Below, in pieces: positions 7,150-11,975 of a stretch of DNA of 63,450 bases. Within the stretch, counting starts at the first letter, position 1. Each line of letters begins with the position of its first letter. The notes below the pieces were generated by a model. The model searched no databases, had not been told where the DNA came from, and was given only the letters and a program-made list of their open reading frames with translations. The stretch lies in assembly GCA_013822265.1 (NCBI GenBank), contig PNKD01000009.1, positions 1 to 63,450 of the forward strand. Direction: 5' to 3'. The position numbers were made by a program, and so were the translations under genes. Source of the stretch: Leptothrix sp. (in: b-proteobacteria) (GTDB lineage: Bacteria; Pseudomonadota; Gammaproteobacteria; Burkholderiales; Burkholderiaceae_C).

Positions 7150-8050
7150 AGTCTGTTCGAGGCCTTGCCGGCGGTCGATGGGCATGAGGCTGCGGCGGCG
7201 GCACAGGCCCGCTGGGCAAGCCAGCGCCAGGACCTGGGCGCGCTGTTCGATGCGATCGAGGCCCGAGGTGCAGTGCCAGGCCGGCGCGTGATCGACCCGC
7301 GCATCCTGTTTGCGCCGTGGCTGTACGCGGCTGGACGGTGTAGGCAGTGGGCGCGAAGTCGCACGGCTGTGACGAGAGCACGACGCGTACCGCTGGATCT
7401 GTGGCGGCGTGCCGGTGAACTGTCACGCGCTCAACGACTTCCGCAGCGGCGCGGGCAACGACGCGGTGATGGACGAGGTGCTCAGCGACAACGTGGCCGC
7501 GCTGGTGGCCTCGGGGGTGCGATCACGCTGGAGCGAGTGGCGCAGGATGGCATGCGCGTACGAGCGGATGCGGGAGCGGCCTCGTGCCGGCGTCAGGCGC
7601 GGCTGCAGGAGCCCCACCGAGGTTGATGCGAGCAACATGAAGATGGGCGATGGCGGCTGCCGGCCTGCCTGCAACCTGCAGTTCGCTACAGACTGCACCG
7701 GCCAGGTGATCGTGGGCGTGGATGCTGTCACCGCAGGCAGCGAAATGGGCGCGACTCGCGCGCATGGTGGCGCAGGTTGAGCAACGTCTGGGGCAAGCCC
7801 CGCGGCATTGGTTGGTCGACGGAGGCTTCCCCGGGCATGCGCAGAGCAACGCGGTGTTTGGCAAGACCGAGTTGTCTGCGCCTTTGCCCCGGCCCAAGCC
7901 GGCCAAGGCCGAGGATGGCAAGGACGGCGACCGGCGCGTCCCCAGCCGAGGGTTCCTTCGGGGCGACGTCAACGCGTGGCAGCAGGCGCGCAACTCTGCG
8001 CAGCGCACCCTCGAGCGGTTGTTCACCCGTCAGAATGCTGATCGGAAGCT
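7150..8050 (+). pseudogene. IS1182-family transposase, multiply frameshifted
   Basis: Matches to the IS1182-type (DUF772/DDE_Tnp_1) transposase appear in order but in shifting frames. They include ARWASQRQDLGALFDAIEAR and VIDPRILFAPWLYA near 7200-7330, NCHALNDFRSGAGND and LSDNVAALVASG near 7420-7520, ITLERVAQDGMRVRA near 7530, NLQFATDCTGQVIVGVDAVT near 7670-7730, then MVAQVEQRLGQAPRHWLVDG and VFGKTELSAP to about 7960. At least four frame changes are needed and the C-terminal catalytic part is not seen. No terminal inverted repeats were found. The element is dead. Confidence 0.75.
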
Positions 8051-8100
8051 CGCTCGGCCTGACGTTCCGAAGTCTGCGTGTTGATGTACTTGGAGCCCGT

Positions 8101-8889: not shown

Positions 8890-9030
8890 GGGCGGGCCGG
8901 GCGGCAGCGTTTCGGGCGGCGTGACGGGTATCGGCCAACCAGCCGCTGCCAAGTGCCCGCTGTCGCAGAGCCCTGACCTGTCGTCGCGCGCCAACCTTGT
9001 TCGGCCGCGCCATCACGGGGTCGAGGAGGG

Positions 9031-10593
9031 TTAGGCCGCGAGCCTTTCGGCCTTCTCGACGCTGCGCAGGAATCCCTCGACCAGGTCTCGCTTGAGGTCG
9101 CAAAGAATTGACTGCCCTGGAGTCCCGGAGCGAACGATCCTGCCCTCCATGAGTTCGAGATCGGCCCCCAGGCAGCCGTAGCACAAGGGCTGCGCCCAGC
9201 AGCGCTGGCAAGCTGGATTCGTGTACTTGTCCTGCAACAAGATCTCTTGATGGACGAGGCTTGCGGCTGCGCCCTGCGTTCGATTGACTTTCCCGTCTTG
9301 GCCTCCGGGAGCGTTCACCACGCTGCCAAGACTGTGTTCGCGCGTCTGCATCAGCATGAAGCAGGCATACACACCACCGTCGGCATTGACGGTAATCTCC
9401 CTGCGGCCTGCCGGGCAGTAGTTCCTGATGGGCACGCCAGAGCTCAGACTCCGCAGCATGCGCACGGCGAGCGAGATCGTCTTGCGCGTGCCGGTGGCGA
9501 GATTGGCCAGCGACGCGTCGATCGCATCCCCAAGCAAGCGCACGCCGGCCGGCAACGGAACGAACTCGGAACTCGACGGTGCCGCCGAAACGATCTGGCA
9601 ATGCAGGGTGCCGCAGCCGAACTCCGAATGGAAGAAGTCCATCAGGTCGACGATGCTCATGCCGCGACGGAGATGCTCATTCGTGTATGTGCATTCGAAC
9701 TCCACCGCCAGGCCCATACGGAGCAGCCTGTGAGCGTTTGCGGCGACGGCATCGTAGGTGCCTCGGCCGGCAGGCGTCCGCCGCTTGGCATCGTGGATCT
9801 CGCGCGGGCCGTCCAGGCTCAAGGTCACGCTGAAATTGTGTCGCTGCAGCAGACCCAGCACCGTTGGGCTGAGCGCGTAGCCATTCGTCGCAGTGCCGAA
9901 AGACGGCCGATACAGGAGCTCGCCGCGTTCATACAGGTCGCCCACATGTGCGCAGGCGCTGTCGATGACCTCTACGTTCAGAGTCGGCTCGCCACCAAAG
10001 AAATTGACGTGCTCGATGCGGGAGTAGCTTCGAGCGGCGCGGTCGAGTGCAACGTGCATGACGTCGCGCGACATCAGCAGACCCTTCTTGCTGTAGTACC
10101 GGCCTGTCTGCGCGTAACAGTAGCTGCAGCGCAGGTTGCATGAATTGCTGACCGCGAGCGTCAGGCGGTCCAGCGTCGGTCTGTCGTCCGCGCCGGCTTG
10201 GGTTGAGGTCAATCCGTCGTTGGACATCAATTCGCCGGCCGCGACAGCAACACCCTCTGCGCCGCCCACTCGGGCAGTCTCGGCGCGGCCGGCGGCGAAC
10301 TCGCTCAGTGCAAGCCACAACCGGCCGCGGCTCTGGCTGGGCAGGATGCGCAATTCCAGCCTGTCGCGCAGGAACACTGCAATTCGATCTCCCGTGTCGA
10401 TGAGCCGTATATGCGGCAGCAGCTCGCGTGCCAGATCGACATCACCCGACGACCCAGCCGCAACTCGGGTGCAATGGGACGCGTCTGATGCCACGGGGCG
10501 CATGGTCAGGGCACGGCGCTCGTCGGACGCTGTTCGGACCGTGACATCGAAGCCCCGTTCGCGATTCAAGCCCTCAGCGTGAACGATGCCCAC
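9031..10593 (-). CDS. radical SAM/SPASM enzyme, probable peptide maturase
   Basis: A 520-residue enzyme. The radical SAM core starts at NSCNLRCSYCY with the cluster-binding C152-x3-C156-x2-C159, then FFGGEPTLN (GGEP at 200-203) for SAM binding. The C-terminus carries a full SPASM cysteine set: C393, C411, C462, C465, C471, C474 and C498, sufficient for two auxiliary [4Fe-4S] clusters. SPASM enzymes of this shape modify ribosomal peptides, forming thioether, C-C or epimerised residues. The first 140 residues precede the core and could hold a peptide-recognition domain (inference). The GTG at 10593 is only 14 nt after the upstream CG-repeat gene; M31 is an alternative start. No Shine-Dalgarno sequence is clear, so coupling to the upstream gene is likely. 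Confidence 0.85.
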   Translation of the reverse strand: MGIVHAEGLNRERGFDVTVRTASDERRALTMRPVASDASHCTRVAAGSSGDVDLARELLPHIRLIDTGDRIAVFLRDRLELRILPSQSRGRLWLALSEFAAGRAETARVGGAEGVAVAAGELMSNDGLTSTQAGADDRPTLDRLTLAVSNSCNLRCSYCYAQTGRYYSKKGLLMSRDVMHVALDRAARSYSRIEHVNFFGGEPTLNVEVIDSACAHVGDLYERGELLYRPSFGTATNGYALSPTVLGLLQRHNFSVTLSLDGPREIHDAKRRTPAGRGTYDAVAANAHRLLRMGLAVEFECTYTNEHLRRGMSIVDLMDFFHSEFGCGTLHCQIVSAAPSSSEFVPLPAGVRLLGDAIDASLANLATGTRKTISLAVRMLRSLSSGVPIRNYCPAGRREITVNADGGVYACFMLMQTREHSLGSVVNAPGGQDGKVNRTQGAAASLVHQEILLQDKYTNPACQRCWAQPLCYGCLGADLELMEGRIVRSGTPGQSILCDLKRDLVEGFLRSVEKAERLAA

Positions 10594-10607
10594 CTATCGG
10601 CATGGGG

Positions 10608-11207
10608 TCAGGATCCTCCGAAGTCCCTGCCCATCTGGAAGTAGCGCTCGTTGACACGGCGGGTCACCGAGGCGGACAAGTGCGCGACGCTCTCGAGAAA
10701 CTCGGTCGCCATCAGTGCATCACGCGTCTTGGTCGGTGTCTTGAGTTCGTTGAAGGGATCGATCGAATACGGCTTCGTTTGGTAGTGACTGACGATCTTC
10801 TCCTGATACGACAGATCGGCCATTGCAGCGCAACCGCAACCGCAGCCACAGCCGCAGTTGTCCGCCATGTTCTCTTTGCTGAAGTACGGCGCGTTGCGGT
10901 CGGCGGCCACCTGTCGCGACAGCCGGTGCAGCAGGGTCGAGGTTTCCAGCGAAGGAAGCTCGGCCATCACCAGCAGCGCGACCTGATCGGCGAACGACAT
11001 GCTGGCACTGGCCTCCTTCAGCTCTTCAAGCTGGCGCTTGCGTGGTTCGACGAGCTGCGTACGGAAGTTCTCGATCTCGATCTTTCGCAGTTCCTTGCGA
11101 CTGTCGGTCGACTGGATGGGCGGCCGGTTCTGGCGCGCGCGTACCCAACCATCGAACAGCCGCACTGCGATGTTTTGCGAACGTTGTTGCTCGGTAAGGT
11201 CAGACAT
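10608..11207 (-). CDS. (Cys-Gly)4-Cys repeat protein, candidate substrate of the adjacent radical SAM enzyme
   Basis: A 199-residue soluble protein with no signal peptide. The centre (residues 117-126) reads NCGCGCGCGC: five Cys alternating with Gly at 118, 120, 122, 124 and 126. These are the only Cys in the protein. The codons mix TGC/TGT and GGC/GGT, arguing that the peptide sequence rather than a DNA repeat is kept. The first 110 residues are charged and helical, with a hydrophobic amphipathic patch (SFADQVALLVMAELPSL), and about 70 residues follow the repeat. It lies just upstream of the radical SAM/SPASM gene. I do not recognise the family. A modified protein or RiPP precursor is the best inference; metal binding is the alternative. 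Confidence 0.75.
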   Translation of the reverse strand: MSDLTEQQRSQNIAVRLFDGWVRARQNRPPIQSTDSRKELRKIEIENFRTQLVEPRKRQLEELKEASASMSFADQVALLVMAELPSLETSTLLHRLSRQVAADRNAPYFSKENMADNCGCGCGCGCAAMADLSYQEKIVSHYQTKPYSIDPFNELKTPTKTRDALMATEFLESVAHLSASVTRRVNERYFQMGRDFGGS

Positions 11208-11212
11208 GGCTT

Positions 11213-11221
11213 ATCTCCTTA
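11213..11221 (-). promoter_or_regulatory. strong Shine-Dalgarno of the CG-repeat gene
   Basis: On the minus strand TAAGGAGAT precedes the ATG at 11207 by about 6 nt, a near-perfect anti-16S match. It fixes this start and suggests high translation, as expected for a substrate made in excess over its enzyme. The maturase gene that follows has no comparable site. Confidence 0.7.
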
Positions 11222-11626
11222 GACGGAGGCGGGAAGAAAACACCAACCCGCTTCCTATTTCAGACCAGCCGGCGAGTCCTCTTGGCCATTGAGCCTGGTC
11301 AATACAGCGTGGCAGTGCGCGCTGCGCAGCAGCGGGCGTTCGACGCGCCGCCGATGCCGGTGTTGGGAGCGTGTGCTCGGGGCGATGGCGTTCGTCGTGG
11401 AGCCGGGCGCCGTCGGGCGCCCGATGGGGCTGCCGGTCGATGGCTGGCGCGGCGGGCTTCCGGTGGGGTGAGCCCAAACGCTCTCAGTCCGTGCGCCGTG
11501 CCTTCATCGCCCTGAGTGCTGAGCGGCGGCTGTCGCCTGAGGGTCGTGCACCGCCGGCCGGCCCGTTGTCACGACGGGCAGCGATGCGGATCAAGGCGGT
11601 CGGCCGCGCCTCACGCGGCGGCGTGG

Positions 11627-11715
11627 GCTGCATCCGGCGAGATCGTCCAGCAGGTGGCGCTGAACACCTGGATGAACTGCGTCAACTCGGTGGCCCAGAC
11701 CGAGATCGATCGGTG
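11627..11715 (+). pseudogene. possible carboxymuconolactone-decarboxylase-family remnant
   Basis: One frame reads SGEIVQQVALNTWMNCVNSV then AQTEID. This resembles the C-terminal helix of AhpD/CMD-family alkylhydroperoxidase-like proteins (HVALNxxTNYVNxVAxTEIDFP). The frame is open on both sides but no CysXXCys active site or other conserved block is seen. If the match is right it is a short relic. The surrounding 556-bp stretch (11208-11763) otherwise shows no gene that I can support; other open frames there look like random GC-rich translation. Confidence 0.35.
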
Positions 11716-11763
11716 CAGCCAACCGCACCGCGCCGAGATCACGTCGGCGCTCGGCGTGGACCT

Positions 11764-11958
11764 TCAGTTCGCTTCCCCGGGTGCAGCCTGCGCCGCCGGC
11801 GGCGGCAGCTTGCGCCCGCGCCGCGCCAGCGCCTCGCGCAGCAGGAACTCGACCTGCGCGTTGACGCTGCGAAGTTCCTGCGCCGCCAGGCGTTCGATCT
11901 CGGCCCACACGGCCGGGTCGATGCGCAGTGGAAAGTGCTTTTTGCCGGGGCTGGCCAT
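11764..11958 (-). CDS. small ribbon-helix-helix (Arc-like) DNA-binding protein
   Basis: A 64-residue basic protein. KKHFPLRIDPAVWAEIERLA forms the beta strand and first helix, and ELRSVNAQVEFLLREALARR the second helix; this is the Arc/MetJ ribbon-helix-helix pattern (start MASPGKKHF). The PLRI strand would enter the DNA major groove of a dimer. A Pro/Ala-rich tail follows. It is the last gene of a three-gene unit behind the SPFH and membrane protein genes, 17 nt after the latter. The palindrome in the operon promoter makes autoregulation plausible (inference). An antitoxin role is possible, but no toxin gene is adjacent. Confidence 0.75.
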   Translation of the reverse strand: MASPGKKHFPLRIDPAVWAEIERLAAQELRSVNAQVEFLLREALARRGRKLPPPAAQAAPGEAN

Positions 11959-11975
11959 GGAAGACGGCGGCGGCT

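Follow-up and report, generated by a model that had tools for sequence, protein, structure and literature searches.

We describe a gene pair in which a 199-residue protein whose only cysteines form an unbroken (Cys-Gly)4-Cys run, here called the CG protein, is encoded next to a radical SAM/SPASM enzyme, and which recurs in the same order in two bacterial phyla. On balance, we favor the explanation that the enzyme remodels the run inside the intact CG protein, most likely by forming thioether links. The pair was analyzed in a 63,450-nucleotide stretch of Leptothrix sp. DNA (the window) and at its counterpart locus in Candidatus Brocadia pituitae; the run and its flanks are conserved between the two, the enzyme carries the radical SAM and SPASM-type cluster motifs, and the pair is absent from the corresponding place in a genome of the same genus.

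Radical SAM/SPASM maturases are in many cases known from short peptides. The partner found here is a long protein with an unbroken alternation of Cys and Gly, and we regard it as a putative new class of substrate for an enzyme of a known kind. Crosslinking of the run would mean a new substrate logic, with donors and possible acceptors side by side and four times repeated, and would leave a compact scaffold of thiols or thioethers that may be a metal or redox site. The complete pair lies within one 2.2-kb stretch, and no such protein/enzyme pair was found in titles and abstracts of the open-licence PMC literature, among the matches listed.

The gene pair

The locus comprises the following features (window coordinates):

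9031..10593, minus strand: radical SAM/SPASM enzyme, 520 aa from GTG (open reading frame; Pfam Radical_SAM above cut-off; 48% identical to the Brocadia enzyme)
9100..9417, minus strand: SPASM-type segment, enzyme residues 393-498, CX12GX4C-X50-CX2CX5CX2C-X23-C
10117..10140, minus strand: CX3CX2C radical SAM cluster motif CNLRCSYC, enzyme residues 152-159
10608..11207, minus strand: CG protein, 199 aa, probable substrate of the enzyme (open reading frame; 63% identical Brocadia homologue adjoining an orthologous enzyme)
10743..10781, minus strand: QTKPYSIDPFNEL, CG protein residues 143-155, the longest invariant stretch after the run (two-protein alignment)
10830..10856, minus strand: (Cys-Gly)4-Cys run, CG protein residues 118-126 (codons and coordinates; identical run in Brocadia)
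11215..11220, minus strand: Shine-Dalgarno-like AAGGAG, 7 nt upstream of the CG protein ATG

A first-pass annotation of this DNA had reported two genes adjacent on one strand with the CG gene first, an enzyme with C152xxxC156xxC159 and seven SPASM cysteines, and a 199-residue protein whose sole five cysteines form (Cys-Gly)4-Cys; every one of these counts proved correct on checking. The cysteines of the CG protein (118, 120, 122, 124 and 126) all lie inside CGCGCGCGC, and the SPASM-type cysteines of the enzyme are C393, C411, C462, C465, C471, C474 and C498. The genes are 14 nt apart if the GTG is the start of the enzyme and farther apart with a later start; this start is uncertain, as the BLASTP alignment to the Brocadia enzyme opens at residue 62 and further start codons lie downstream.

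The enzyme exceeds the cut-off of Pfam Radical_SAM (49.8 bits against 29.5) and falls just below that of Pfam SPASM (19.8 against 21.5), and the seven-cysteine SPASM pattern is present in both the window and the Brocadia enzymes. Its nearest solved structure by sequence is 5wgg, which is CteB (PMC7876137, excerpt). No model in Pfam, NCBIfam, PHROGs or PADLOC covers the CG protein, in agreement with the earlier remark that its class was not one recognized, and its profile gave no match at E up to 10 to the sequences of solved structures. A citryl-CoA lyase match (E 0.0008, 18.5 bits, cut-off 261) and PHROG matches (E 0.018 and 0.02) were taken as chance. Structure predictions from two-row alignments were poor for both proteins, with a mean pLDDT of 40.7 for the enzyme and 46.4 for the CG protein.

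Reading frames of (CG)n type are not rare in this GC-rich genome, where a degenerate pattern gave 8 matches at 5 places and (CG)n frames other than that of the window arise from TGCGGG-type repeats. At the 4 places outside the window, the CG frame is an open stretch of 35 aa (L001), nothing but repeated TGCGGG (L002) or, in L007 and L008, an open stretch that has no Met ahead of the run. The run of the CG protein might accordingly be the translation of a GC-rich repeat, and its open reading frame no gene. Against this, and setting the window run above chance, stand the AAGGAG site 7 nt before the ATG, the mixed codons of the run, and an intact run in a 63% identical homologue of another phylum, which lies in a locus of 45% GC and uses mostly different codons. 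On these sequence grounds we regard the artefact reading as in practice already refuted.

The pair in Candidatus Brocadia pituitae

The scan for close relatives compared the enzyme with one genome per species (84,980 species) and used six short peptide patterns. Of 22 stretches that matched a pattern, one was confirmed as a relative: Candidatus Brocadia pituitae (AP021856.1), an anammox member of the Planctomycetota. Its locus (L018) encodes a 206-residue CG protein, in which the nine-residue run is identical and holds every cysteine, 95 nt upstream of a 500-residue enzyme, with strand and order as in the window.

By BLASTP, the CG proteins share 121 of 193 residues (63%) and the enzymes 226 of 469 (48%), so that the CG protein is the better kept of the two (60.8% against 49.2% of aligned positions). 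Its best kept part surrounds the run (44 of 57 residues identical over residues 107-163, against 77 of 142 elsewhere). Five of the nine run codons differ between the genomes, all silently, and 81 of the 121 identical residues of the whole protein are specified by different codons; the same residues under different silent codons indicate that the protein sequence has been kept by selection.

We compared every open frame of 60 residues or more from the 13.4-kb Brocadia locus against the full window. Good matches were limited to the two genes, the remaining rows being two antisense enzyme frames and one weak 33-residue match far off, and no protease or transporter was common to the two loci. The recurrence of these two genes, and of these two only, in one order and on one strand argues for a two-gene unit. 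Between the Brocadia genes (L018:5891-5985) lies a long, strong hairpin (z -5.1; none of 200 shuffles did as well), possibly an attenuator, which would fit, in this one case, a substrate made in excess over the enzyme; the intergenic stretch of the window holds no comparable hairpin (z 0.07; 104 of 200 shuffles).

Distribution

The pair is very rare. In genome sets that overlap and are mostly thin samples of large groups, the CG protein was found in 2 of 299 genomes of the window's family (its own and one low-complexity match), 1 of 369 of its class and 1 of 47 of its genus (its own in each), and 1 of 392 of the phylum of Brocadia (B. pituitae itself). The low-complexity match, in G051 (37% over residues 92-145, with an internal TAG), was dropped; in L010 the CG stretch runs antisense to a 557-aa open reading frame. 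The enzyme was found in 5 of 399 genomes of the window's order at E up to 1e-20 (its own and four with distant SPASM enzymes), 4 of 398 of the window's phylum at E up to 1e-25 (its own and three distant) and 5 of 62 of the order of Brocadia (one ortholog and four distant). Viral contigs gave no match for the CG protein or the enzyme alignment, and a phage collection none for the Brocadia CG protein; a plasmid collection gave none for the CG protein and 11 distant records for the enzyme.

Neither a CG protein without the enzyme nor an orthologous enzyme without the CG protein occurs in the genomes sampled. Co-occurrence of the run with the maturase gene, set beforehand by the first-pass annotation as a test of its proposal that the run is what the enzyme modifies, thus holds in B. 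pituitae, the one further genome in which either gene was found, and homologues lacking the maturase or the cysteines, which would have spoken against the proposal, are absent from the family, phylum, class and genus sets searched. With two pairs in all, this amounts to one independent case of co-occurrence.

Comparison with known maturation systems

In both genomes a gene for a ribosomal, putative substrate adjoins a gene for a modifying enzyme, the arrangement taken as the RiPP criterion, and SPASM maturases typically act on Cys-bearing partners encoded alongside them (PMC8326336, excerpt). Neither protein of the pair reaches the cut-off of any curated specific family. The best curated match of both enzymes is to the PapB ranthipeptide maturases (NF047865), which likewise combine radical SAM and SPASM parts and act on Cys-bearing substrates, at 150.5 bits for the window enzyme and 161.8 for the Brocadia enzyme against a cut-off of 340. 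Next for the window enzyme come nif11-type maturases (113.8 bits, cut-off 518.7), SCIFF maturases (TIGR03974; 113.1, cut-off 425) and QhpD (97.9, cut-off 453), and the Brocadia enzyme ranks these families in the same order. That the best matches are all maturases that crosslink peptides or proteins supports crosslinking as the activity of the enzyme.

The likely substrate departs from those of these families. PapB joins Cys to Asp or Glu (PMC9413430, excerpt), whereas Gly stands between the cysteines of the run, and the six-cysteine SCIFF substrate contrasts with five cysteines within nine residues. The streptosactin maturase GggB (NF050038) is also among the enzyme matches, at 80.4 bits against a cut-off of 650, and its substrate GggA, in contrast to the CG protein, is a short precursor peptide cleaved by GggC. 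In streptosactin, a radical SAM thioether connects Cys31 to the alpha-carbon of Gly34, and the RumMC sactisynthases (NF035951) have the SPASM spacing CX2CX5CX2C (both from the excerpt of PMC8172795). The window enzyme shares this spacing, although it scores 61.8 bits against the RumMC cut-off of 720 and the substrates differ.

A close parallel is QhpD/QhpC of quinohemoprotein amine dehydrogenase maturation (TIGR03906, NF037958), in which a SPASM radical SAM enzyme is also encoded beside a Cys-bearing protein substrate. QhpD acts on a protein subunit, QhpC, and not on a small peptide, and QhpC loses a 28-residue leader to QhpE (PMC7876137, excerpt). As with the CG protein, conservation of the substrate roughly matches or exceeds that of the enzyme: between two fetched loci used as a yardstick, the QhpC-type pair is 67.6% identical and the QhpD-type pair 65.3%, where the QhpC of one locus (L021) was confirmed by NF037958 and the other proteins were named by neighborhood and likeness. 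Unlike QhpC, with its Cys paired with Asp/Glu, the CG protein bears a CG run, and it matches neither QH_gamma (E up to 1) nor any other NCBIfam model at a meaningful score. No gene for a dehydrogenase subunit, protease, transporter or flavoprotein is common to the window and Brocadia loci.

Proposed mechanism and alternatives

We infer a substrate-enzyme unit in which the enzyme would bind the CG protein, cleave SAM at its CX3CX2C cluster and abstract hydrogen atoms in the (Cys-Gly)4-Cys run or next to it. The most likely outcome would be one or more links from Cys sulphur to carbon (thioethers), for which the Gly alpha-carbons are the nearest acceptors; the Cys31-Gly34 link of streptosactin (PMC8172795, excerpt) is a precedent for the bond, and QhpC (PMC7876137, excerpt) for a protein subunit as substrate. 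The product would be the intact protein, conserved and mostly helical, in which the ladder of cysteines has been remodelled; no peptide would be released, and the finished protein may carry a metal or redox site. We consider it most likely that an intact protein is modified, as QhpC is by QhpD, rather than a short peptide matured. Counting against this explanation, there are only two instances, and invariant residues off the run, such as QTKPYSIDPFNEL, are an equally possible target. A bolder form, which we advance tentatively and with some doubt, is that the pair represents a new class of protein maturation, in which Cys-to-Gly alpha-thioether or equivalent bonds would turn a strictly alternating (Cys-Gly)4-Cys strand into a ladder and so give the protein a metal or redox site of its own, with the two-gene unit carried between phyla.

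The first-pass annotation had also termed the run a core. The run is indeed conserved, but the sense of a released peptide is probably wrong, given that the whole length of the protein and both flanks of the run are kept. A classical RiPP is an alternative reading: the CG protein would be a long precursor from which a protease encoded elsewhere frees a small CG peptide, to be exported or to bind metal. Substrate and maturase genes are adjacent, the nearest curated families of the enzyme are mostly RiPP maturases, short open reading frames of 62-107 aa beside distant relatives contain Cys/Gly stretches, C-terminal in two cases, and the Brocadia hairpin could make the substrate exceed the enzyme. 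The leader loss of QhpC (PMC7876137, excerpt) likewise leaves room for a cut of the CG protein despite the QhpD analogy. This reading has to accommodate some 73 conserved residues after the run, a substrate better kept than its enzyme, loci that share no protease or transporter, and a window intergenic stretch devoid of a comparable hairpin, and we think it unlikely, if by no means negligible. Conservation over the whole length, together with the lack of a common protease or transporter, fits an intact modified protein better than a cut-out peptide.

With a cysteine at every second residue, five thiols share one face of a strand, much as they do in CXC motifs that bind metal. The unmodified thiols might thus bind a metal or an iron-sulphur cluster, with the enzyme modifying another part of the CG protein, where the further invariant stretches, chiefly QTKPYSIDPFNEL, would be candidates, or another molecule altogether. 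We treat this as a serious alternative, albeit an improbable one, for the CG protein occurs only beside a SPASM maturase, in both genomes, and the typical targets of such maturases are Cys-bearing neighbors (PMC8326336, excerpt). The enzyme might also act on the run by chemistry other than thioether formation, for instance conversion of Cys to formylglycine, or Cys decarboxylation or epimerisation. Anaerobic sulfatase maturases make formylglycine from Cys, and their profiles and structures are among the enzyme matches, yet they score below PapB, SCIFF and QhpD, and the run presumably holds no sulfatase-type motif, which makes this chemistry distinctly improbable.

Genomic context

The pair differs in composition from its surroundings. 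GC content is 71% in the window, 64% in the enzyme gene and 60% in the CG gene, and in-frame third-position GC is 0.77 for each gene of the pair against 0.83-0.95 in eight other open reading frames of the window (0.86 in the gene near 4.9-5.98 kb). The pair lies within a segment missing at the corresponding place in a genome of the same genus (G1484):

8899..11812, no strand assigned: segment without match at the corresponding place in G1484 (L050), which has 392 other bases there

In G1484, the end of an enoyl-CoA hydratase gene and the match to window positions 11813-11959 are just 392 unaligned bases apart; the pair is absent there, and no CG protein was found elsewhere in that genome. Based on the low GC and third-position GC, the absence of the pair at this place in G1484 and the other bases found there instead, we take the two genes to be a unit acquired horizontally at a variable site. 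Repeats within 8899-11812 are short or imperfect, and none marks the ends of the segment as those of an element. Elsewhere in the window (7409-8084, plus strand), pieces of open reading frame resemble, by eye, the broken remains of a transposase, with no Pfam match. In a plasmid collection, the best listed matches of a window stretch are to Eleftheria (73.5%) and Roseateles (78.5%), and most of the 62 matching records belong to other proteobacterial genera such as Rhizobium and Paracoccus; the elongation factor P of the genome is nearest to Pseudoalteromonas, Shewanella, Aeromonas and Neisseria records, at 61-64%.

Distant relatives of the enzyme

A tree of 15 rows places the window and Brocadia enzymes together (100/100). 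Four distant enzymes (L032, L057, L058 and L023, the last from a Methylocystis plasmid) join them in a group that is separated at 100/99 from the other rows, the QhpD-type and nif11-type ones among them. Support for the position of L032 is lower (84/82), the tree contains some long branches, its rows were picked by likeness to the window enzyme, and the distant hits L020 and L059 were left out. A small open reading frame with a Cys/Gly stretch lies beside three of the four distant members, which supports the substrate-enzyme unit; these frames were picked by eye, with no control count, and are a lead. None was picked out by eye at the L023 and L059 loci, and a scan of 11 relatives' loci for (CG)2C and similar patterns gave a (CG)n protein in the Brocadia locus only.

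At L057:2017-3586 (G1615:C17, of the window's phylum), a 98-aa open reading frame ending in NCGNGCAG lies 64 nt ahead of a 402-aa radical SAM enzyme; its end, MADGNCGNGCAG, recalls MADNCGCGCGCGCA of the CG protein, and it looks like a minimal RiPP precursor. At L058:4806-6341 (G1513:C8, same phylum), a 425-aa radical SAM enzyme is followed after 69 nt by a 62-aa open reading frame ending in KNFCCSGVG, which has no family and is possibly another precursor. At L032:5644-7513 (G1056:C23, of the order of Brocadia), a 474-aa radical SAM enzyme, in which the usual SPASM cysteine pattern was not found, precedes a 107-aa open reading frame with ECGCGGQGHHC. Neither the enzymes nor the small frames of L057 and L032 reach an NCBIfam cut-off among the matches listed.

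A leader common to the CG protein and the distant small frames seemed plausible by eye and failed a shuffle test (z -1.1 to 1.6 for the parts before the run); the whole L057 frame scored z 4.4 against the CG protein, a signal gone once the Cys/Gly motif was removed. What we take to be a named family, 'CGCGG family rSAM-modified RiPP', was considered for the L032 frame and set aside, the CGCGG frame matching no such NCBIfam model. The letters CGCGG in the excerpt of PMC12323606 are those of a primer.

Other loci with related enzymes show further arrangements. By reading of open frames, L019:5864-9762 (G359:C5) holds three tandem radical SAM enzymes followed by ABC transporter-like frames, with TonB-receptor-like frames on both sides. 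At L035:601-2893 (G1092:C352), a radical SAM enzyme adjoins a 284-aa open reading frame with 27 cysteines, and at L033:1-2174 (G839:C24) one adjoins a 148-aa open reading frame with 12 cysteines and CDPGTNNP-type repeats; these two Cys-rich frames are possibly large ranthipeptide-like substrates in the order of Brocadia.
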